From: Armatimonadetes bacterium 55-13
GTDB taxonomy: Bacteria; Armatimonadota; Fimbriimonadia; Fimbriimonadales; Fimbriimonadaceae
Reading direction: 5' to 3'
DNA length: 51,068 nucleotides
Assembly (NCBI GenBank): GCA_001898035.1
Contig: MKRX01000017.1
Location: forward strand, 3,520-54,587
Within the stretch, counting starts at the first letter, position 1; every line of letters starts with the position of its first letter. Shown piece by piece: positions 3,797 through 51,068 of the stretch. Under the pieces are notes generated by a model. It ran no database searches, was not told where the DNA came from, and was given only the letters and a program-made list of their open reading frames with translations. The translations under genes were made by a program, and so were the position numbers.

Positions 3797-5188
3797 ATGA
3801 AAAGGATTTTTCTTGGATTACTTGTTGTTTTTGTAGTTGCGGCCGCTAGCCTCTCGGTGATGGCGGCTCGTTTCGTGCCCACTATTCGGCCCAATACTCA
3901 GATTGGAATGGTTCCGGTTGGGGGACTGACCAAAGAGGAAGCGGCAAAAAAGCTCCGTATTTGGTGGGAGTCGGAGAGAAAGCGCGAACTCAATCTCCGC
4001 TCGGATCAGATTCGAAAGGCGTTGCCCGCAATGACTCCGGGAAAGCTTGGCGTTACTCTTGACGATCAAGCCAGTGTGGCTCAGGCCGAGATTAAGGATT
4101 TTTGGGAAGCTGCGCAAGCCACGGTAACGGGTGGAAACTACGAACCGGTGAAGCTTGATCTCAAGTTTAAGCAGATCGACGCGAGTCTCAAGAGCTTGGA
4201 TGCGTTGGTGCGGGAGTCGATTGGCGAACCGCGCGCCGCACGTGTGACCTACGCGGCGGGTGCGGTCGTGCGAGAGCCAGAGGTTACGACCTTTGAATTA
4301 GACGTCGATAAACTCGGTGACGCTGTCCTGGCCGCATTGGCGGCTAATGGCGATGTGGAAGTTCCGATCAAAGAGGCGCCGAAGCGGGTGCCCGACGACG
4401 AACTAGCGAAGATAGTAGAAGTCGAGAGTGAGTTCTCGACCCGATTTCCTGCCTATCAGACAAGTCGAAACACCAACATTCGGTTGGCGGCAAGTGCGCT
4501 GAACGGTCAGGTTCTTATGCCGGGCGATCAGCTGAGCTTCAATGGCTGCGTTGGCCGCCGAACAGTGGCGGGCGGTTATAAAGAAGCTCCTGTTCTTAAG
4601 AATGGCATGCACGACACCGGAATCGGTGGTGGTATTTGTCAGGTCAGCACGACTCTCTACAATGCCTCGCTCTTCGCGGACCTGAAGATTGTTAAACGCA
4701 ATAACCACTCCATTCCCAGCGTGTATGTACCGGTGGGACGGGATGCGACGGTCGACTACGGGACTCTGGACTTGGTGATTGAAAATAACCAGGATCATCC
4801 GATCGCGGTTTCTTCCACGTTTGAGAACGGAAAGATCACGTTCCGCATCCTTGGTAAGAAGGATGTCAGTCGAGAAGTCAAGATTTTGACGAGTGGCCAC
4901 AAATCTTGGAGTAATGGCGTGAAAACTGTCGTGGACCGAAGTCTGCCGGCGGGGACGACTCGGGTGGTGGAAAAGGGATCTTCCGGGCATTCCATTACGA
5001 CGTATCGAGTGGTGTACGAAAACGGTGTGGAAGTCCGCCGTGAGGTTTTGAATCGCAGCGTGTACCGGGGCTCACCGAGAATCGTCGCAACAAATAACGC
5101 ACCGGCCGCGCCTAAGAAAGCAGAACCTTTGGCAGCGCCAAGCGAACAGCCCGATACCGAGCCGACGATCCCACCGCTGGATAACTAG
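3797..5188 (+). CDS. VanW family protein with G5 domain
   Basis: A 463-residue exported protein starting with a membrane signal (MKRIFLGLLVVFVVAAASLSVMAARF). The middle holds a peptidoglycan-binding-like region (VGGLTKEEAAKKLRIWWES). The VanW core follows at about residues 215-350, with LSFNGCVGRRTVAGGYKEAPV, the GIGGGICQVSTTLYNASLFADL motif, HSIPSVYVPVGRDATVDYG and LVIENNQDHPIAV. Residues about 375-435 (VVEKGSSGHSITTYRVVYENG) look like a G5 domain, and the tail is proline-rich and disordered. VanW proteins act in or near the cell envelope, but the biochemical activity is not established. It converges on and overlaps by four bases the stop of the next gene. Confidence 0.9.
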   Translation: MKRIFLGLLVVFVVAAASLSVMAARFVPTIRPNTQIGMVPVGGLTKEEAAKKLRIWWESERKRELNLRSDQIRKALPAMTPGKLGVTLDDQASVAQAEIKDFWEAAQATVTGGNYEPVKLDLKFKQIDASLKSLDALVRESIGEPRAARVTYAAGAVVREPEVTTFELDVDKLGDAVLAALAANGDVEVPIKEAPKRVPDDELAKIVEVESEFSTRFPAYQTSRNTNIRLAASALNGQVLMPGDQLSFNGCVGRRTVAGGYKEAPVLKNGMHDTGIGGGICQVSTTLYNASLFADLKIVKRNNHSIPSVYVPVGRDATVDYGTLDLVIENNQDHPIAVSSTFENGKITFRILGKKDVSREVKILTSGHKSWSNGVKTVVDRSLPAGTTRVVEKGSSGHSITTYRVVYENGVEVRREVLNRSVYRGSPRIVATNNAPAAPKKAEPLAAPSEQPDTEPTIPPLDN

Positions 5189-7044
5189 CGCACTTTGATC
5201 AGTTGGAACTGATTGCCTTGGACGACCACTTCGCCTAGACCGCTTAAGTCGGCGATCTGCGGAAAAGTGTTCGGGGCGGGAGTCACGATATAGGCAGGCT
5301 TGATCTTTTCAAGGATCGCCTGCCTTTCTTCTTGTGGCGTTCGGTCCAAGAAGATCGCCATAGATTCATTGCGTCGATTTCCGTAGTCTGGCGTCTCGCT
5401 CCAGTGACCGGCATAGGTATAGACGCCCGCAAAGCCGGAGAGGATGGGGTTTAGATCCGGGAGAACGGGCTCACGGAAGGTGACCGGCTGACTATCCGGG
5501 ACAGGTTGAGGCACCCCAGGCATGGCCACCACGATTGTTTTTTGTTCGGACGCATGATGATCGTTGAGGTAGGCAAGGATGCTTTGGACATCTCGCGTCA
5601 GATAGACAGGATGAACGGTAGTGTTAGATACGTTCAGCTTGATCAGTTCAATTTCCCGGAAGAACCATCTTAGTGACGTGCCAGCGACGCAAAGGATAGT
5701 GAGGACGGTAATCAGGTTCCGCTTGGATCTTTCTCGATTCAACGCCACCGCAGAGAGACCGGCGGCCGCGAGAATGGCCCAAGGCACGCTCAGTCCCATG
5801 GTGAGCTTGCGCTCAAAGAGAGAGGGGAAGTAAGGAGCGATTAAGCCCGTTAGAGCCCAGGCGACAACCAGGTTGGCAGCCGGACGGTCTTGGGCGAGCA
5901 GGCAGCAACAAGCAACCGTTGCGACATAAATGAGAAGCCATGCAGGCATGCCCATGGCGTAGCCTTCGAAACCAGGCGCCGGCGCGGTGGCAAACAGCAG
6001 GAGGATCAGGATGGCGCCGATCGCTGCGCCAGTAAGAACCCGCTTGTCTGCCTTGAGGCGGGATTGGAAGAGACTCAAGGCCGCCATTGCGATCATCAGG
6101 GCATATCCGAGAAGGAGAACTTTGAAATTGGCGCTGTAGGTTGGAGTGGCGGCGCGGGCTTGGAAGACGGCGTCTTGCTTGAGGACATGGACAAACCAAA
6201 GGGCGGGAGGAATGGCTCCCGATGCAATCACCAAAGCCCGGATTACCCATTCTTTCGAGATCGCCCTCCTCGTGATTTGCATGCCGAGAAAGGCAATCAT
6301 GGCGAAAGCGATAATCAGGACGTCGTAGCTGTGGATATTCATGAGCGCGGCAAAGGCGAGCGCTCCGGGCAAGACGGGCTTCCAAGAGTTCTTGGCCTCT
6401 AGAAAACTCAGGAAGATGAAGACGATGAGGCACAAGCTCACCATGAAGAGGCCGTTGGTGAGAAGGGAAGGAAGGACAAATCCTTCCGGCTGCCATACGT
6501 CATTGGGAAGACCGGGCACTCCCATGGCAGTGAAGAGCGACTGGAACGGACCGGATGTGGTGAATACTCGTCCGAAGTTCTCCCAGACAAGGAATCCCAA
6601 TCCTCCGCCGACCACAACAATGGCAAGGGCCAGTTTACGAGTGTAGACGTTCGTCACCGTCTTCTGAATCAAGCGGTGAATTAAGACAACGAAAAGCGCT
6701 GAGAAGGCCATCTTGCCGATGGCGGCCGCCAAAGGGATCCCGGTCAACTTCGCGAGTAGGCCCAAGACAAAGAAATAGATGTGGATCGTGAGGCCCGGTT
6801 GCGAGTCTACGGCGAACCGGTTATCCATCAACAGATGCCCATCCATGGCTTGGCGCATCCACGCCGAGTACACCATATGGTCATCCGTATTGAACTGAAA
6901 GCCCAGATATTTGGCGCCAGGGGGAGCAGCAAGGAGCGCGTAAAGACTCGGCAAAATGGAAAGGATCGCCGCGCCGATGGCGAAGGCGATCACATAGGTC
7001 CGCTCAAAATTAGCGGCCGACTCGTTTCTGGGTTGGTCGTTCAA
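5185..7044 (-). CDS. Large polytopic membrane protein, GT-C-like architecture
   Basis: A 619-residue protein with about a dozen hydrophobic segments. It has a first helix (TYVIAFAIGAAILSILPSLYALL), then an extracytoplasmic loop carrying the acidic phrase NTDDHMVYSAWMRQAMDG. The last 130 residues are soluble (IVVAMPGVPQPVPDSQPV and RTPQEERQAILEKIKPAYIVTPA). Many membrane helices, an acidic first loop and a C-terminal soluble domain recall lipid-linked glycosyltransferases of the GT-C fold, but no diagnostic motif was recognised. It stands alone between vanW and the DUF4350 cluster. Function unknown. Confidence 0.7.
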   Translation of the reverse strand: MNDQPRNESAANFERTYVIAFAIGAAILSILPSLYALLAAPPGAKYLGFQFNTDDHMVYSAWMRQAMDGHLLMDNRFAVDSQPGLTIHIYFFVLGLLAKLTGIPLAAAIGKMAFSALFVVLIHRLIQKTVTNVYTRKLALAIVVVGGGLGFLVWENFGRVFTTSGPFQSLFTAMGVPGLPNDVWQPEGFVLPSLLTNGLFMVSLCLIVFIFLSFLEAKNSWKPVLPGALAFAALMNIHSYDVLIIAFAMIAFLGMQITRRAISKEWVIRALVIASGAIPPALWFVHVLKQDAVFQARAATPTYSANFKVLLLGYALMIAMAALSLFQSRLKADKRVLTGAAIGAILILLLFATAPAPGFEGYAMGMPAWLLIYVATVACCCLLAQDRPAANLVVAWALTGLIAPYFPSLFERKLTMGLSVPWAILAAAGLSAVALNRERSKRNLITVLTILCVAGTSLRWFFREIELIKLNVSNTTVHPVYLTRDVQSILAYLNDHHASEQKTIVVAMPGVPQPVPDSQPVTFREPVLPDLNPILSGFAGVYTYAGHWSETPDYGNRRNESMAIFLDRTPQEERQAILEKIKPAYIVTPAPNTFPQIADLSGLGEVVVQGNQFQLIKVR

Positions 7045-43799: not shown

Positions 43800-45041
43800 A
43801 TGCGGACATCCCAAGTCCAGTTCGTCGTTGCGGTGCTACTTGCCCTCGCGTTCCTCCTTCTGCCAGGCACTGCCCTTGCTTACGAATCCGCCCAAAACGA
43901 CCCTTATCGCAACCTGAATCGCTCTTTCTACACAAGTAGCAACCGCTTCTATCCAACGTTTAGAGGCGAATGCACGTGGTACAGCAATGGAAGGGCGCAG
44001 GAGGCCGGGTGGGATCCAGGCTTTTACGGAGATGCCGGCTTATGGTGGGAGCGGGTTCCCAACTACAGTCGCAAAGATCAAACCCCCGCTGTGGGTTCCA
44101 TCATGTGTCTTTCCGGGCACGTAACCTACGTAGTGCAAGTCATTGATGCAAATACCTGGGTAGTTGACGAATACAATCAGTACCCCGCGTATGGTCATCA
44201 GTGGAGCAGGGAGACTGTTAGACGCGTGGCTGGAAGCTCAAACCTAGTCAAGCTGGAACTGGCCAAGACGGCTGTGACTCTTAAGGGGTTCATCCACCCG
44301 CCAGTTCATCCTAACGGTGTCTTTAAGCCTGAAGACTCAAGCAGTGTCTTCCTCATCCAAAATGGAGTGCGTCAGGCTTTTAACTCCTGGGATTCTTTCC
44401 TCGACTACTTCTACGGATCACCCCCGCCAATTACGACCGTCACGAGCGCGCAAATCTACGAGCGCACGAGTTGGCGCCCTCCCGTGCCTCACCTTGTGAT
44501 GCAAAACAGCGACGGTACGATCTGGTGGATTCGTGAGACCGCCGATCCCTACCCGATTGGACGTTGGGTGTGCCGGGCTTTCAACACGGCGGCGGCTTAT
44601 GAAGGGATGGATTTCCTATGGACAGACTGGAGGCATGTGAACTACTTTGTCTCGTGGAAGTACCCACGTCTCAGCGACATTCCATTTGCAGAGCCCGTCG
44701 GAATCATCACCGACGGTCCATTTGTAAACCGCAACGCCGACGGCAGCTACAGTGGTGGTTTTCGTCTAAGGAATCTCTCGATTGCAGGCAATTTCGCTTC
44801 CGCAACCATCCGGGTTGTGAGGAGCGATGGTGCTTGGTACGACTTTCCGTGGTCACCGGGATTCAACCTCGGGAAGAACCAAGAGTATGTGTGGTGGAGT
44901 ACGCGCCGCCTCCCGCCTGGATCTTATCGCATCAAAGTTGTGTATTCGTACTACAGCTTTGGGCGCAACTTTCAGTTCTTCGCTCCCGGTGCCGGCTTAT
45001 ACCCATATCCGGATAGCTTAGGACAGTTCGTCGTGAACTAA
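43800..45041 (+). CDS. Secreted CHAP-domain peptidoglycan hydrolase
   Basis: A 413-residue exported protein. The signal peptide (VQFVVAVLLALAFLLLPGTALAYES) is followed by a CHAP domain: FRGECTWYSNGRAQEAGWDPGFYGDAGLWW with catalytic Cys58, PAVGSIMCLSGHVTYVVQVI with catalytic His107, and the GVFKP-type linker. The C-terminal half (residues about 185-413) has Trp/Tyr-rich strands that may bind the wall or a partner. In conjugative or phage-derived elements, CHAP enzymes open peptidoglycan for transfer or lysis. The gene is alone, with a hairpin at its ribosome site and after its stop. Confidence 0.85.
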   Translation: MRTSQVQFVVAVLLALAFLLLPGTALAYESAQNDPYRNLNRSFYTSSNRFYPTFRGECTWYSNGRAQEAGWDPGFYGDAGLWWERVPNYSRKDQTPAVGSIMCLSGHVTYVVQVIDANTWVVDEYNQYPAYGHQWSRETVRRVAGSSNLVKLELAKTAVTLKGFIHPPVHPNGVFKPEDSSSVFLIQNGVRQAFNSWDSFLDYFYGSPPPITTVTSAQIYERTSWRPPVPHLVMQNSDGTIWWIRETADPYPIGRWVCRAFNTAAAYEGMDFLWTDWRHVNYFVSWKYPRLSDIPFAEPVGIITDGPFVNRNADGSYSGGFRLRNLSIAGNFASATIRVVRSDGAWYDFPWSPGFNLGKNQEYVWWSTRRLPPGSYRIKVVYSYYSFGRNFQFFAPGAGLYPYPDSLGQFVVN

Positions 45042-45517: not shown

Positions 45518-45884
45518 GGCCTCTCCCTGCCGCAAGACGGCGGATGTTTTTATCACCGTGCGAGTAAAGAAGCGCTCGGTCTTCAGAGCCCGCTGGTAAT
45601 TCACGAAAACCTGAAGAACTCCTCGGAATAGCAGCTAAGTTTGCTGTTGCTGTTTGCTGCACCACAAAGGTTGGCCAGCCTTCCCAGATAAGAGCATCAG
45701 AACTGGCTTTTAGCACAAAGAAGCAATATCAGGAAATTGGGCCTAGTAAGCGAACATGCCAGACAGGTGTGCATGTATAATCGTTCCTGTTGATGTCGTA
45801 CGATCTTCGTTCTCTTGGCTTAATAATTCACCACGGAGTGCAGTAACTAAGAGTTCTCATCTTACGATCAGCCCTGGTGATCCG
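45518..45884. other. Intergenic region upstream of the JAB-E2-E1-TIR operon
   Basis: The 367 bases hold no confident gene. TATAAT at 45776-45781, with TG immediately before it, is the best minus-10 candidate for the operon. A matching minus-35 is not clear. The reading frame continues upstream of the JAB start to 45756, but the residues there do not look like protein of the family. Confidence 0.4.
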
Positions 45885-46853
45885 ATGTCTAAGCCTAAAA
45901 TCTGCGTATTTGAATCAGAAGTCCACGCGATTGGCGGTGAGGCCTTGCGCCATCCCCGGTCAGAAACCGGAGGGGACCTCTATGGCCTTTTCACACATGG
46001 CGGGATGCCTGTTGTCTGGCTTGCTTCGGGGCCAGGGCCAAATAGCAGCGGTCACGGTACCGAGTTCAGTCAGGATCCCATGTTTATAACTCACTGGCAG
46101 CGTGTGCTTAATCAGCGGTTCGCAATCCAATACATAGGCTCTTGGCATTCTCACCACGTTCTTGGTCTGAAGCACCCCAGCGGCGGGGATGTTGACTCGG
46201 TGAGGAAATATGCCAAAAAGCATGGCCGATCAAAAACCTTAGAACTCCTGGTGAATTTCGATTCGGAGCGGTCTCCTCTGATCCCGTTTCTGCGAGCTTT
46301 CTTTTACGGCAACGCGGAGACCGGGCACTACGAGCAAGTAGATATTGAGTCGATTCGTGGTGTGAGCCCGTTACGGACATTGCTCGGAAGCGAGGAACAC
46401 GCTTTCTCGGCAGGTTTAGCCATTACCGACACTCGAGCGAGGCTGGTGCCCTCAACGGCAGTGATCCAACCGGAGCGGACTTATGTGCCATCCCCTATAG
46501 AGGGGCAGGTGAAGCATGAAACCATAGAAGCGCTTCTTGTGCAGCTAGGTATTGACGAGATCGAGCTATTAGGTTCGCGGGACGGTCAGCATATGATCCA
46601 GATTCCCATTCGAGGCGGGAGCCTAACGATGGTACTAAGCGTCGATCAAGGTTTGTCCCTGCTGGGTGGCCGCTTTGACTCCGCTGACGGAGCCGCTGGC
46701 GATCTTTTCAAACTGTTTATTGAAGACAGACAGATCGTCCTTCCAATGAAGCTGAACTCTGCAATAGAACTTTCACGACTGGTTTCAGCAGCATCCTCTT
46801 TCATCCAGAGAGTTGCAAACGGTAAGAGCAGGACATGGGGGTGGCGAAGATGA
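45885..46853 (+). CDS. JAB/JAMM-domain metalloprotease (deubiquitinase-like)
   Basis: A 322-residue protein from ATG 45885. The catalytic zinc site is visible: ETGGDLYG with Glu27, and SWHSHHVLGLKHPSGGD with His88, His90, Ser99 and Asp102. This is a JAMM motif with an eight-residue H-to-S spacing. The fold of residues 1-140 is the MPN/JAB domain. Residues about 185-322 form a second domain with beta strands (MIQIPIRGGSLTMVLSVDQ) and a final helix (AIELSRLVSAASSFIQRVA), unassigned. In bacterial ubiquitin-like operons JAB enzymes process or remove the modifier. The end overlaps the E2 start (ATGA). Confidence 0.9.
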   Translation: MSKPKICVFESEVHAIGGEALRHPRSETGGDLYGLFTHGGMPVVWLASGPGPNSSGHGTEFSQDPMFITHWQRVLNQRFAIQYIGSWHSHHVLGLKHPSGGDVDSVRKYAKKHGRSKTLELLVNFDSERSPLIPFLRAFFYGNAETGHYEQVDIESIRGVSPLRTLLGSEEHAFSAGLAITDTRARLVPSTAVIQPERTYVPSPIEGQVKHETIEALLVQLGIDEIELLGSRDGQHMIQIPIRGGSLTMVLSVDQGLSLLGGRFDSADGAAGDLFKLFIEDRQIVLPMKLNSAIELSRLVSAASSFIQRVANGKSRTWGWRR

Positions 46854-47308
46854 GTGCCTGGAGAACTGATCAGAGAATGCGATTAGCTGCCGAGGCTGAA
46901 GTGCTTAAAACGGAACTGCCCCACTTTACGTGGTATGACGAGGCATCGGCTACAAATGCCACCATTCGCGGAGAGCATACAACTACGGCAGGAAACACAT
47001 ATAGGTTGTGCCTCCATGTGACTTCGAATTTCCCGAATTCCCTGCCTGGTTTGTATGTTACATCGCCCTGTCCTTTAGTTGGTTATGGTGGAAAGACAAT
47101 CCAAAGTTACGGCACCTCTCATACGATGCACGTTTGGAAGCCTGATTGGGACAACTATGCGAAGCTGTGTCATTGGAAGGAGGAGTTCTGGTCGCCTTCA
47201 AACACATTGCTTAGTGTTTTGATGAAGGGAATGCTGTGGCTTGAGGCGTTTGAAGTGCATTGCAAAACCGGAAAGTCGATTGACGAGTATTCACTGAATT
47301 TTAGATAG
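46850..47308 (+). CDS. E2-like ubiquitin-conjugating fold protein
   Basis: A 152-residue protein from the ATG of the ATGA overlap with JAB. The probable catalytic cysteine is Cys107 in YAKLCHWKEEFWSPSNTLLSVLMKGMLWLEAFEVHCKTGKSI, and SYGTSHTMHVW precedes it. The following W-S-P-S-x-T-L-x-x-V-L-x-K-x-x-L-W-L-E pattern is characteristic of prokaryotic E2-like proteins. The first half supplies the beta meander (YRLCLHVTSNFPNSLPGLYVTSP). It should accept a modifier from the E1-like protein encoded next. There is no E3-like gene in the window. Confidence 0.87.
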   Translation: MSAWRTDQRMRLAAEAEVLKTELPHFTWYDEASATNATIRGEHTTTAGNTYRLCLHVTSNFPNSLPGLYVTSPCPLVGYGGKTIQSYGTSHTMHVWKPDWDNYAKLCHWKEEFWSPSNTLLSVLMKGMLWLEAFEVHCKTGKSIDEYSLNFR

Positions 47309-47319
47309 GAGAAACAGAT

Positions 47320-47502
47320 ATGAGCGATCAGAATCAGAACGATGTTCAGAAGTGGATGGAGGAAGTGGCTACGCAAGGAGCGACGAAGAACAAGCTTATC
47401 TTCGACAAGAAAACGAAGCGACTCATCTCTGTCCCTGCAACCGATCCTAGAGCCGACGATTGCTTGGAGTTTACTGCTCAAGAGGCAACGCGTTTCGCAT
47501 AG
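47320..47502 (+). CDS. 60-residue protein between E2 and E1 genes
   Basis: MSDQNQNDVQKWMEEVATQGATKNKLIFDKKTKRLISVPATDPRADDCLEFTAQEATRFA. A good ribosome site (TAGGAG) lies upstream of the ATG at 47320. The gene lies 11 bases after E2 and nine bases before the E1 ATG. An acidic helix is followed by two short strands. There is no C-terminal Gly-Gly and the length is below the roughly 75 residues of a ubiquitin fold, so it is not a recognisable modifier. It might be a short, processed or partner protein. Its place in the operon argues that it is needed. Confidence 0.72.
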   Translation: MSDQNQNDVQKWMEEVATQGATKNKLIFDKKTKRLISVPATDPRADDCLEFTAQEATRFA

Positions 47503-47511
47503 TATGGTGTG

Positions 47512-48726
47512 ATGGTCCCACTACTTATTTTATCGTCTGACTTGAAAGAGTGCTCTTCGGAGGGACCATTACGCACATCACTGGTGGCCCAAGATGATGG
47601 CGATGCCTATATTGACCAAAGGCTTATTGCATCGAGTAAGGCTGGATCGGTCGCACGTACGTGCCAGGTGTTGCATGATGGCGATACATCAGCTGACGAG
47701 GACTGTTTTGTGGTGTTAGCCAAGGATTCGAAAACAGCTCATCTTCACATTGATGGATTGCAGCAAGAATGTGAGATCGAGTTTGTTGACTTAAAAGATG
47801 AGTTGCACAGCCGAATAGTAGGTCTTTACGAAACTGAAGTTCTAACAGAGAAGCATGTACTTGTCGTGGGCTTGGGCTCAGGTGGAAGTCCTATAGCCTT
47901 GGAACTTGCTAAAGCCGGCGTTGGAAAGTTCACCCTGATCGACGCTGATCGGCTTGAGGTGCATAACGTTGTCCGACACCACTCTGGCTTATCTGATCTC
48001 GGACGCTTTAAGACCAAAGCGGTCCGTGAGGCCATTCTGGAAAAGAACCCATTTGCAGACGTCAAAACTTTCGAACGGAAATGTGAATGGGAATGGAGCG
48101 ATGAGCTAAGAGCGATTATCGCTAACGTTGACTTGGTTTTTTGCTGCACCGATAACAGACCTAGCCGTCTCTTGCTGAACCAGCTTTGCTTTGAACAGCG
48201 ACGCATATGCATCTACGGTGGAGCCTTCCGCCGAGCCTACGGAGGTCAGGCTTTACGAGTGTATCCGGGCGAGACGATTTGCTACCAATGTTTTATTGAC
48301 CAGATGCCAGATGCGGCGGCAGATCAGGAAATTGCAAACGCCGATCAAGCGGAGGCCATCGCATATGCTGATCGCCCGGTAGCAATCGAACCCGGTTTAT
48401 CAAATGACATTGCACCAATCTCCACAATGTGCGTGAAGCTGGGAATCCTTGAGCTGCTCAAAGGATCTGCGACAAGTTTCCAGAACCTCTACGATGACCT
48501 CACGGCTCCTTGGTATCAGTGGTTGAACCGACGGGAAGTCGGAACGGATTATGAGGAATTGCCTCCCCTTGATACCGATCCAGAGGCCCCTCGGATATTG
48601 GGATGGTATGGAGTGGCGATTGAACGGAACCCTGCTTGTCCGGTTTGCGGCGACTTTATCGGATCACTGGCAGCGTCACACGGTATTTCTGTTGAGAATC
48701 TGGATACCGCGAGGTTTGGACAATGA
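47512..48726 (+). CDS. E1/ThiF-like ubiquitin-activating protein
   Basis: A 404-residue protein. The adenylation domain starts near residue 110, with VLVVGLGSGGSPIALELAKAG (G120, G122, G125), LIDADRLEVHNVVRHHSGLSDLG (D144, D146, R155) and FKTKAVREAI. CYQC (257-260) and CPVC (376-379) form a zinc site. The first 105 residues are an extra domain not assigned. The fold activates a C-terminus with ATP. GTG 47509 and ATG 47512 are adjacent starts; I use ATG. The end overlaps the ThsB-like gene by four bases. Confidence 0.9.
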   Translation: MVPLLILSSDLKECSSEGPLRTSLVAQDDGDAYIDQRLIASSKAGSVARTCQVLHDGDTSADEDCFVVLAKDSKTAHLHIDGLQQECEIEFVDLKDELHSRIVGLYETEVLTEKHVLVVGLGSGGSPIALELAKAGVGKFTLIDADRLEVHNVVRHHSGLSDLGRFKTKAVREAILEKNPFADVKTFERKCEWEWSDELRAIIANVDLVFCCTDNRPSRLLLNQLCFEQRRICIYGGAFRRAYGGQALRVYPGETICYQCFIDQMPDAAADQEIANADQAEAIAYADRPVAIEPGLSNDIAPISTMCVKLGILELLKGSATSFQNLYDDLTAPWYQWLNRREVGTDYEELPPLDTDPEAPRILGWYGVAIERNPACPVCGDFIGSLAASHGISVENLDTARFGQ

Positions 48727-49211
48727 GAAGAGCCTTCTTCAGTTTTCATTATCAGCGAGATATATTTCGGGCAAACCAAGTGCGAAATAGCTGGGTTTGT
48801 CCCCCAGAGAGGGAATATCAGGCATCGTGGGACGGAAGCCTTTGGGAAGAAGCAGTTACGAAGGGTGATGACGCGATTAAGAGCTTGATTGATAGTGGCC
48901 TGGCGAATACATCAGTGACAGTAGTTCTAATTGGCCAGGAAACATACCTGCGCAAGTATGTTCACTATGAGATTGCTCGATCTTTTCAAGATTCTAAGGG
49001 GCTTGTTGGAGTCTACATCCATAATTTGAACTGTCCTGTTGAGGGAACTTGTATTCGCGGTGAGAATCCACTGGATAACTGGGCTGTAACCAAAAACAAT
49101 GTAAGCGTCAAATTGAGTTCAACGTTCAAAACTTACGACTACGTAGAGGATGATGGATACAATAACCTTGGAGCCTGGATTGAAGAGGCCGCTCGGATAG
49201 CTGGACGTTGA
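48723..49211 (+). CDS. ThsB-like (MTH538/DUF1863) TIR-domain protein
   Basis: A 162-residue protein. RRAFFSFHYQRDIFRANQVRNSWV is the typical start of MTH538-type TIR proteins, the ThsB group of Thoeris. VTVVLIGQETYLRKYVHYEIARSFQDSKGLVGVYIHNLNC is the central strand and helix with the conserved glutamate (HYEI). ThsB proteins sense phage and make a cyclic ADP-ribose-like signal. ATGA overlap with the E1 gene makes coupled translation certain. The partner ThsA is not in the window; a membrane protein follows instead. Confidence 0.87.
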   Translation: MRRAFFSFHYQRDIFRANQVRNSWVCPPEREYQASWDGSLWEEAVTKGDDAIKSLIDSGLANTSVTVVLIGQETYLRKYVHYEIARSFQDSKGLVGVYIHNLNCPVEGTCIRGENPLDNWAVTKNNVSVKLSSTFKTYDYVEDDGYNNLGAWIEEAARIAGR

Positions 49212-49212
49212 A

Positions 49213-49710
49213 GTGATGAACGACGTTTCGCCCGAAAAACCACATCTACTCAAGCACCTTGAGTTTGTTCAACTGACCATCATCAGGTTAGCAGCCAATT
49301 CGTTTATTGTGAAAGGTTGGTCTGTAACCCTTGTTGCCGCAATTCTCGCATTTACGGGAAAGGATAGTACACCGGCTGCTGCCTGGTTTGCTTTGCTGCC
49401 TGCGCTAATGTTCTGGGGACTAGATGCATACTATCTACGGATTGAGCGCCTATACAGAAACTTGTACGATAAAGTCAGACAAACCAGAGGGTCGCCAGAC
49501 TCCGAGGTGGATTTTTCTTTGGATGTAAGTTCTTTGTCTAACCAAGAAACTCCCTGGATTGGTGTGGCGTTCAGTAAAACCCTTTTTCCTTTTTACATTA
49601 GTCTTATTGCGGTTATTGTCGTGGTTGCTGTTCTCGGGCAGCAGTTCCAAAGATCAATAGGCGAGTCGCCACAAGCAGCCGTATCAGCTGGCCAGAAAGG
49701 AACGCCATAG
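49213..49710 (+). CDS. Three-span membrane protein, probable effector of the TIR module
   Basis: A 165-residue protein, one base after the ThsB-like stop. LEFVQLTIIRLAANSFIVKGWSVTLVAAILAFTG and AWFALLPALMFWGLDAYYLRIERLYRNLYDKV form two membrane helices with conserved G-W and D-A-Y-Y-L phrases. The third span is FPFYISLIAVIVVVAVLG. Small multi-span proteins next to TIR or nucleotide-signal enzymes are often SLATT-like effectors that damage the membrane. Family assignment is uncertain; position and topology drive the call. Confidence 0.78.
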   Translation: MMNDVSPEKPHLLKHLEFVQLTIIRLAANSFIVKGWSVTLVAAILAFTGKDSTPAAAWFALLPALMFWGLDAYYLRIERLYRNLYDKVRQTRGSPDSEVDFSLDVSSLSNQETPWIGVAFSKTLFPFYISLIAVIVVVAVLGQQFQRSIGESPQAAVSAGQKGTP

Positions 49711-49713
49711 GCA

Positions 49714-50235
49714 ATGGCTTTTCTTACTTACGATAAACTGCGAGAAATTGCAGTCAGCGATTCGGCAAGATTCGCCCAAAAGTCTATTGACTTGTCCGAG
49801 GTTAAGTCAACGGTGTTTCTATCGCATAGTCATAAAGACACTGAGATAGTGTCAGCGGTAGAGGCATTCTTGAATGACTTGAACCTCCTGGCCTATATTG
49901 ATTGGAAAGATGCCACGATGCCCGAAACGACAAGCCCGGACACAGCAAGGGCTCTGCGGATATTGATTGAGAAGAGTAGTAAGTTCCTCTTGCTTGCAAC
50001 GGAGAATTCCCTGAAATCTGCGTGGGTTCCATGGGAACTGGGCGTAGCCGATGGGGTCAAAGGCTTGAGCAATGTTGCAGTGTTACCTGTTTCCAAGAAC
50101 GACAGAACGTTTCCCAACAATGAGTACATGGCAATGTATCCCCGCGTAGAACAGGCCAGAGGCGGCGAATGGTTTGTGTATCCAGCGGGCCAAGACTCTA
50201 ATGGTGTACAGTTTGCCGCATGGCTAATTCTGTAG
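49714..50235 (+). CDS. TIR-domain protein (TIR_2 type)
   Basis: A 173-residue protein, three bases after the membrane gene. STVFLSHSHKDTEIVSAVEAFLNDLNLLAYIDWKDATMPE is the start of a TIR domain, and SKFLLLATENSLKSAWVPWELGVADGVKGLSNVAVLPV contains the catalytic-type glutamate (Glu108 in WELG). Bacterial TIR enzymes cleave NAD+ or make nucleotide signals. It is a different TIR group from the ThsB-like protein two genes upstream. The last gene of the operon; convergent with the recombinase remnant. Confidence 0.88.
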   Translation: MAFLTYDKLREIAVSDSARFAQKSIDLSEVKSTVFLSHSHKDTEIVSAVEAFLNDLNLLAYIDWKDATMPETTSPDTARALRILIEKSSKFLLLATENSLKSAWVPWELGVADGVKGLSNVAVLPVSKNDRTFPNNEYMAMYPRVEQARGGEWFVYPAGQDSNGVQFAAWLIL

Positions 50236-50263: not shown

Positions 50264-50994
50264 TTAGGTGAGACCGTTAGGCTCATCTCCGTGGCTCACC
50301 CAGGTTCTGATGTCGTCCCTGAATCTCCGCCAAACGGAACTGTCCGGTCCAGATTGCCCATCGCTAATCTGTTCGGGGCCGCTCCGGGAAGGTTCGAACG
50401 TGCGTATTCGGTCAAGGACTGGATGTGGCTTGATTTCGAGGTTTCCCAGAGTGAGAACGTAGGACTCAGCGAGGAGGCTTGATAAGTACCGTTTGACGTG
50501 CACATCATCAGTGGTGGTGAAGCGATCGTAGGCTGTCGGCGCTTCACTAAGTCGAGTTTCAGCTTCTAACCGGCGAGTTTCATATTCAAGGTCGGCCTTT
50601 TCTTGGACTGCCTCTATGGTCGCGATCTGAGCTTTGTAGTGGAGCTTCCGGTCTTGGAACTCCTCTGACGATAGCTCGCCGTGTTCTCGCATCTCAAATA
50701 CGGCCGCGAGATGACTTCTGAGGCGGGAGAGCTCGCTACTTTGGGTCGAGTCAATACCTGCAACCCTATCTGGCAATTCTCCACAATGACGTTCAAGGCC
50801 CTTGGCTGTCCACTCGGCTAACTCCGGGGTCAACCGGCAGCGGAACCAGAGATCGGCAATCTGGCGATCAATGTAGTCTTCTGAGACCGAGTGACGGATA
50901 CACCCGCGCCTACCGGTGCAGTGGTAATAGATGTACGCGACGGTTCGGCCCGTCTTCTTGTAGTGCTTGATCTTCTCCTCAGCGGTGATGAGAC
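50264..50994 (-). pseudogene. C-terminal remnant of a large serine recombinase
   Basis: Reading upwards from the stop, the frame is open to the IS-like boundary near 50995. ITAEEKIKHYKKTGRTVAYIYYHCTGRRGC is the recombinase zinc-ribbon region. A coiled coil follows (SSELSRLRSHLAAVFEMREHGELSSEEFQDRKLHYKAQIATIEAVQEKADLEYETRRLEAETRL), then the usual C-terminal tail. The N-terminal serine catalytic domain and most of the first zinc cysteines are absent from the window. In-frame stop TAA (53-55 of the last hundred bases) lies inside the IS. It looks disrupted rather than simply cut by the window edge. Confidence 0.75.
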
Positions 50995-51068
50995 TGAGCT
51001 GCCCCCCATTATGAGGATCGTTTGAAATAGTAGAGTCTCCAGTTAAGGAGACTTATGAAGAAATCCAG
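50995..51068 (+). mobile_element. Probable left end of an IS3-family insertion sequence
   Basis: TGAGCTGCCCCCC (50995-51007) looks like an IS3-family terminal repeat (TGA start, C-run). AGTCTCC (51034-51040) and GGAGACT (51047-51053) form a perfect 7-base hairpin that holds AAGGAG (51045-51050). This is the ribosome site for ATG at 51055, which begins MKKS, the usual start of an IS3 OrfA. The element interrupts the recombinase frame. Only the left 74 bases are visible, so the family is inference. Confidence 0.5.
51055..51068 (+). CDS. Start of a plus-strand gene, probably IS3 transposase OrfA (partial)
   Basis: ATG AAG AAA TCC, preceded by AAGGAG four bases away. Encodes MKKS and then leaves the window. 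The IS3 OrfA interpretation rests on the upstream signature and this start only. Confidence 0.45.

Follow-up and report, generated by a model that had tools for sequence, protein, structure and literature searches.

A 60-residue protein encoded between bacterial E2 and E1 genes belongs to an unnamed family and is most likely the small subunit of a split Cap2-like conjugation cassette

The open reading frame at positions 47320 to 47502 of a 51,068-nucleotide stretch of DNA from Armatimonadetes bacterium 55-13 (the window, meaning the whole stretch analysed) is a genuine gene, and its product belongs to an unnamed protein family. Most likely it represents a new family of small subunits belonging to a split Cap2-like conjugation cassette, in which JAB, E2, small protein and E1 are encoded together. 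The small protein is probably an obligate, noncatalytic subunit of one bacterial E1 family and not the protein that becomes conjugated. The parts of the operon are as follows.

45885 to 46853, forward strand: JAB/JAMM peptidase with a C-terminal extension of ~150 aa (PADLOC JAB, E 5e-8)
46850 to 47308, forward strand: E2 (UBC-like), with an ATGA overlap with the JAB stop (Pfam UQ_con at only E 0.019)
47307 to 47311, forward strand: AGGAG, the Shine-Dalgarno sequence of the small gene, read in the sequence
47320 to 47502, forward strand: the small gene, putative subunit, ATG start, 60 aa
47509 to 48726, forward strand: E1-like adenylating enzyme (ThiF, E 8e-39), starting 6 nt past the small stop
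48723 to 49211, forward strand: ThsB-like TIR protein (Pfam ThsB_TIR, 6e-23; PADLOC PDC-M50B, 1.5e-58, and ThsB, 1.7e-58)
49213 to 49710, forward strand: small integral membrane protein (PADLOC PDC-M50A, 9e-47)
49714 to 50235, forward strand: second TIR-domain protein (Pfam TIR_2, 7e-9; PADLOC ThsB-type, 2e-45)

The longest JAB frame opens at 45756, and the ATG at 45885 (MSKPK...) is the likelier start. The JAMM metal and catalytic residues are present, as read in the sequence (ETGGDLYG...WHSHH...PSGGD). The E2 and E1 labels of the original prediction are sound. The E2 has its catalytic cysteine, Cys107, in ...AKLCHW with SHTMH ahead of it; among 25 homologs this cysteine is invariant (25/25), and the SH.MH, W and G positions vary little or not at all. 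The E2 homologs matched no NCBIfam or PADLOC model at the thresholds used. The E1 carries an N-terminal "wing" of ~100 aa, then the ThiF/MoeB adenylation domain, with a Zn site at C258/C261/C377/C380. The G.G..G, D.D.R, N..R and CxxC/CxxC motifs are conserved in the E1 family, which marks it as an adenylating enzyme of the ThiF/MoeB type. The start of the ThsB-like TIR gene overlaps the E1 stop by ATGA and so belongs to the same operon. Upstream of JAB, window positions 43800 to 45041 encode a CHAP-domain (peptidoglycan amidase-like) protein (Pfam E 1.5e-10). At the other end, a reverse-strand frame at 50264 to 51068 resembles the C-terminal region of large serine recombinases and runs off the contig end, which fits a mobile element.

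The small gene begins 11 nt past the E2 stop, and the claim that it is a well-translated gene of 60 residues between E2 and E1 is borne out by its strong AGGAG ribosome-binding site, by a homolog under coding constraint and by an HMM-defined family. The homolog, from a member of the Desulfococcaceae (L027, the nearest relative), shares about 64–65% identity, with differences by codon position of 23/9/42, mostly third, and a pN/pS of 0.25; the E1 and E2 genes behave alike. The window protein scores E 1e-21 with the family HMM. Alignments of 25–26 members show a conserved core, [KQ]LxYDxxT...V and [IVF]TxEDxxxF. Models from Pfam, NCBIfam, PADLOC and PHROGs gave nothing beyond chance with the window protein, and the family has no sequence match in the PDB; a match of a single member to Pfam DUF768 was weak (E 0.027) and was discarded. 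No second convincing copy of the small protein was found in the window's genome.

The sister loci came from two sources. A tblastn search of plasmids led to a JAB-E2-E1 locus on a plasmid of Bradyrhizobium barranii, with a JAB 34% identical to that of the window and an E1 48% identical over 310 residues. The plasmid E1 is 483 aa long vs 405 aa in the window, and its residues 1–60 align end to end with the window small protein at 30% identity (pairwise E 5e-6). A two-sequence profile built from the window and Bradyrhizobium E1s was then run over one-per-species GTDB genomes and gave 26 loci, of which 25 were analysed after L052, only a fragment, was dropped. Together with the plasmid this makes 26 sister JAB-E2-E1 loci. 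A small homolog lies between E2 and E1 in every sister locus that is complete there; the exception is L041, where the contig begins inside the gene region and the locus is cut at the edge. With the family HMM, a member stands beside E1 at E 1e-18 or better in each fetched sister locus except L041 and L056, the latter a later find and a further standalone member with a weaker match (E 5e-9). The absence of conservation in sister loci would have counted against the gene; conservation beside E1 is what was found.

Only JAB, E2, the small protein and E1 are common to the window and the sister loci, and the family of the small protein is specific to the cassette. The family HMM found no extra copy in the fetched loci besides one in L032, where a degenerate second copy (5047–5470) lies ahead of the fused one. 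The wider distribution is sparse. Single-sequence scans of genome contigs and viral contigs with the window E1 gave no matches, and the two-sequence E1 profile found no viral relatives. Within the window's own phylum (291 genomes) there was no other close relative, the window's own match having E 6e-280 and the next E 2e-30 over part of E1. Samples of 385–395 genomes from the phylum or class of three relatives held at most one further member each. With so few further members found, the system appears to be rare and has probably spread horizontally. No such small protein is encoded at L025 or L026, two further E1 loci where an E2-like gene stands separately. A genome of the same family has a different operon (L004, 391–2343) consisting of a 66-aa ORF, two E2-like genes, a short E1 and JAB, and the second of its E2-like genes is apparently joined to a Phd/YefM-like stretch. 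Its 66-aa ORF, which has an internal Gly-Gly, looks similar by eye and was rejected as a family member at a family HMM E of 0.24.

The small protein is found in two arrangements. It is standalone in 12 loci (the window, L027, L029, L030, L031, L039, L044, L045, L046, L048, L049 and L051) and fused to the N terminus of E1 in 14 (L024, L028, L032–L038, L040, L042, L043, L047 and L050); these counts include the window and the plasmid, and L056 brings the standalone members to 13. In the fused members only 1–10 linker residues separate the small protein from the first E1 wing strand. Each of the 12 standalone members examined has a purine-rich ribosome-binding site ahead of it. In the standalone loci measured, E1 starts −13 to +75 nt from the small stop, the two genes overlapping or almost touching in most of them, with a 4-nt ATGA overlap in L030, L031 and L051.

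In the window the small and E1 ORFs share a frame and only the TAG at 47500–47502 and two codons separate them, exactly where sister E1s are fused. On these grounds a nonsense mutation might have broken a single E1 gene into the two ORFs, or readthrough of the TAG at 47500 might join them. Such a reading is highly improbable given the relatives. The L027 locus is also split, with three in-frame TAA codons between the ORFs and a new ribosome-binding site, and in most other standalone loci the two genes lie in different frames, so the split is genuine. The window E1 also has its own GTG/ATG start, matching the starts of other standalone E1s. A nonsense-broken E1 was rejected on this evidence.

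A maximum-likelihood tree of the E1 adenylation domain requires at least three changes between the fused and separate states, forced by well-supported branches. One of the three fusion changes involves L032, a damaged locus in which JAB was not detected and E2 is truncated. The L028 locus is intact, with JAB, E2 and a fused small-E1 gene, and has a HerA-like gene downstream and no CD-NTase that could be found. L051 shows the reverse, a separate small gene together with a CD-NTase, so that the fusion state is independent of the type of cargo. Repeated fusion of neighbouring genes is classic evidence of joint function, and the repeated joining of the small and E1 genes indicates that their products work together. 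The alternative that had been offered to a modifier, a cofactor of E1 or E2, is thus supported by a family that is always beside E1 and repeatedly fused to it. In L050 (5794–8103) the E1 ORF continues into the CD-NTase, an apparent small-E1-CD-NTase fusion; it may be a frameshift or an assembly error, the E1 zinc region being out of register.

The known system closest to this cassette is the type II CBASS with its Cap2 enzyme. A structural model of an E1 homolog matched MoeB/ThiF at Z 26–27 over the adenylation domain, and in a Foldseek search Cap2 (7to3) and Atg7 matched over more of its length, the Cap2 match extending across 436 alignment columns. In Cap2, the E2 is followed by a linking wing domain like the Atg7 N-terminal domain and then by the adenylation domain, with the E2 tucked under the wing (PMC12355090). 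Type II CBASS likewise keeps JAB, E2 and E1 together with a wing ahead of the adenylation domain, and CBASS genes occur in 13 of the sister loci. The E2 catalytic cysteine of Cap2 has its counterpart in the invariant cysteine here, and the window JAB, with its JAMM residues, resembles Cap3. There are also differences. Cap2 is a single E2-E1 polypeptide, whereas the sister loci examined have separate genes and add a putative subunit of ~60 aa, either encoded between the two or joined to the E1. Cap2 also has an E1 catalytic cysteine in the crossover region, whereas no cysteine column is conserved between C261 and C377 among 27 sequences of this family. The small protein was considered as the source of the missing E1 cysteine and rejected, as its family has no conserved cysteine. 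Unlike type II CBASS, the window operon has no CD-NTase among its genes.

Other systems share parts of this arrangement. Atg7 with Atg3/Atg10 is alike in combining a wing or N-terminal domain with a MoeB-like adenylation domain and in having the E2 encoded separately, but Atg7 has a crossover-loop cysteine and activates the beta-grasp proteins Atg8 and Atg12; to our knowledge it has no small subunit of this kind. Bil systems (BilABCD) also bring E1, E2 and JAB together in a single defence operon. Their modifier, BilA, consists of two beta-grasp domains and their E1 has a catalytic cysteine (PMC11354881); the window system has neither. The Bub system (BubABCD, Citrobacter) is another case of bacterial E1/E2-type conjugation genes, and the BubCD structures were among the Foldseek matches of the E1 model. 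By comparison with these structures, the overall match is poor (TM about 0.37–0.40, rmsd about 18 Å), and the E2 here differs in keeping an invariant cysteine. In the available portion of the survey by Iyer et al. (2006), classes 6a–6e are E1, E2 and JAB neighbourhoods, several of them without a recognised ubiquitin-like gene (PMC1779556). They differ from the present cassette in that, according to the same portion, E2 and E1 are fused in 6a–6c and a ubiquitin-like gene is present in 6d and 6e; none of these operon classes is described there with a 60-aa protein between the E2 and E1 genes (PMC1779556).

The idea of a modifier started from the view that an E1 and an E2 have no use without one, which is wrong for the nearest known relatives. 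In type II CBASS, Cap2 conjugates the CD-NTase via the CD-NTase's own C terminus (PMC10097602; PMC12355090), and Cap3, a JAB peptidase, removes the conjugates that Cap2 makes (PMC11153139). The CBASS relatives of the window system have the same cargo at hand, and with the CD-NTase itself as the expected substrate a ubiquitin-like modifier is not needed in this lineage. The window operon has no ubiquitin-like protein, including none of the two-domain BilA type. Searches of the window genome gave a single clear ThiS/MoaD-type match, on another contig, and none to Prok_Ub.

The small protein ends in ...EATRFA with no Gly-Gly, as had been described. A search of the homologs for the conserved C terminus expected of a modifier found none common to the 13 standalone members, which end in R (four), A, S and G (two each), Q, L and D and share neither a C-terminal residue nor a diGly of the ubiquitin-like kind. 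After the core F, the tails read A, SA, LYQ, GACAGWIL, AGRKGGNS, SATGGIR, RGGLG, GR, SS, SAVLNAR, GGARVR and ARG; the L048 protein is without the core F and ends VGGTTD. Ten of the 13 have G, A or S directly after the conserved aromatic, and a variable tail of 0–8 residues follows. The sequences at the fusion junctions (FGV, FAV, FSV, FGLKP, YMNLC) are not conserved across lineages. The single-chain AlphaFold model of the L042 fusion has a helix at 4–18, strands at 25–30 and 35–40 and a helix at 53–57, with a pLDDT of 56–71 there and an overall mean of 77, and the window protein modelled alone has the same order of elements (pLDDT 64, pTM 0.37). With modest confidence, given these low scores, the predicted fold is a helix, a beta-hairpin and a helix and not a beta-grasp. 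The family has no Pfam or PDB sequence match that would relate it to ubiquitin-like proteins. The VIA-align matches cover mostly residues 173–471 of the fused E1 and are uninformative on the fold of the small domain.

A modifier of another kind was weighed against these results, in which JAB would cut the small protein, a tag without a beta-grasp, after F-[G/A/S], removing either its short tail or the fused E1, and E1 and E2 would then attach it to targets. The core that ends in F-[G/A/S] with a variable tail after it would suit trimming by JAB, and every complete locus has a JAB. The window and L027 proteins end in Ala, which is permitted for Cap2 cargo (PMC10097602), in FtsH-ternary systems JAB has been proposed to release a ubiquitin-like protein lodged in a fusion (PMC7159879), and the small protein is the only one of its size common to all loci. 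Even so, this seems unlikely. The small protein is repeatedly fused to E1 via its own C terminus, including in the intact L028 locus that has no CD-NTase, neither the junction nor a C-terminal residue is conserved, a beta-grasp is not predicted, and the CBASS relatives already have a cargo in the CD-NTase. The shortened or unrecognised modifier of the original prediction is left mostly unsupported on the same grounds. A tag of 60 residues, not a beta-grasp and unrelated to ubiquitin, that is carried in cis on its own E1 in several lineages and freed by JAB, is rather less likely again. If true, CBASS, HerA/WD40 and TIR defence operons would have a self-contained conjugation system in common.

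The genes that follow the cassette differ among the loci. CBASS genes follow E1 in 13 sister loci (L024, L033–L038, L040, L042, L043, L047, L050 and L051), where a CD-NTase is followed by a Cap4-SAVED or TIR-SAVED effector, so that these loci combine CD-NTase, Cap effector, E1, E2 and JAB. SMODS (Pfam) was found in L042 (E 8e-27; PADLOC cyclase, 2e-94) and L051 (E 6e-20), together with a Cap4-SAVED or TIR-SAVED effector, and the L033 effector is Cap4-SAVED (Pfam); the remaining CBASS loci were assigned by the size and position of the downstream genes and by matching C-terminal sequence. The CD-NTases after E1 in L024, L034–L038, L042, L043 and L051 end mostly in FG-[A/Q/V], with FEVK in L051. 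For Cap2 systems the CD-NTase end is reported as Gly/Ala, whereas the relatives' CD-NTases end in A, Q, V or K and not strictly in G or A. The last residue of these CD-NTases may need trimming. Elsewhere in the window's genome, a different contig (L060, 6441–7881) carries the sole CD-NTase, overlapping the next gene, a SLATT-like membrane protein, with no E1 nearby.

A second type of locus is found in a planctomycete/Lentisphaerota group. In L028–L032, L041, L045 and L048 the genes downstream of the cassette encode a HerA-like ATPase of ~930 aa, a pair of short proteins and a WD40-like protein. JAB, E2, small protein and E1 with HerA/WD40 genes make up a candidate defence operon without a CD-NTase.

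The E1s of the non-CBASS loci carry a recurring motif, D-x3-[F/Y/W], near the end of the C-terminal tail in 10 of 14 loci vs 1.4 expected from shuffles, a count that is inflated by the relatedness of the loci and whose control, the CBASS E2 tails, also exceeds its own shuffles. The loci are the window (48672–48726), L027, L029, L030, L032, L039, L041, L044, L045 and L046; the motif is absent in 12 CBASS loci. In the window, the E1 tail ENLDTARFGQ echoes the AQEATRFA end of the small protein, and by this resemblance the two may possibly represent a shared docking motif. The tails also bear on the idea that the small protein regulates E1, with its TxEDxxxF[G/A] end mimicking a cargo tail and filling the adenylation or docking site until displaced by cargo or a phage signal. 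Such a role would agree with the similar motif in E1's own tail and with the FG-[A/Q/V] ends of most CD-NTases in the CBASS relatives. It is improbable, however, because the motif is short and in part an ordinary helix-capping box, its counts carry the kinship and control effects noted above, and permanent fusion to E1 argues for a constitutive part.

A constitutive subunit of E1 is therefore the preferred assignment. It draws on the observed family, position, fusions, coupling with E1 and missing E1 cysteine. By gene order and in the fusions, the small protein occupies the stretch between E2 and the wing. From this position, it probably bridges the separate E2 to the E1 wing, as the covalent E2-wing linkage does in Cap2. 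The small protein would pack against the wing and hold the separately encoded E2 there, replacing the covalent connection of Cap2. No segment related to it was found in solved Cap2 structures, so the bridge role is a positional one. With E1 lacking a conserved catalytic cysteine, the acyl-adenylate would pass straight to the E2 cysteine. The cargo to be conjugated would be a sensor or effector encoded by the operon itself: in the CBASS relatives the CD-NTase, and in the window operon, where TIR and membrane genes follow E1, another protein. JAB would reverse the conjugation, as Cap3 does.

The supposed paradox of an E1/E2 pair without a modifier is thereby removed, and the cassette is defined as a split Cap2 relative whose putative third subunit has so far no name. 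The occurrence of the four-gene cassette in CBASS, HerA/WD40-type and TIR/membrane operons suggests that conjugation of cargo other than ubiquitin probably extends beyond CD-NTases. The non-CBASS loci offer direct places to seek a second cargo.
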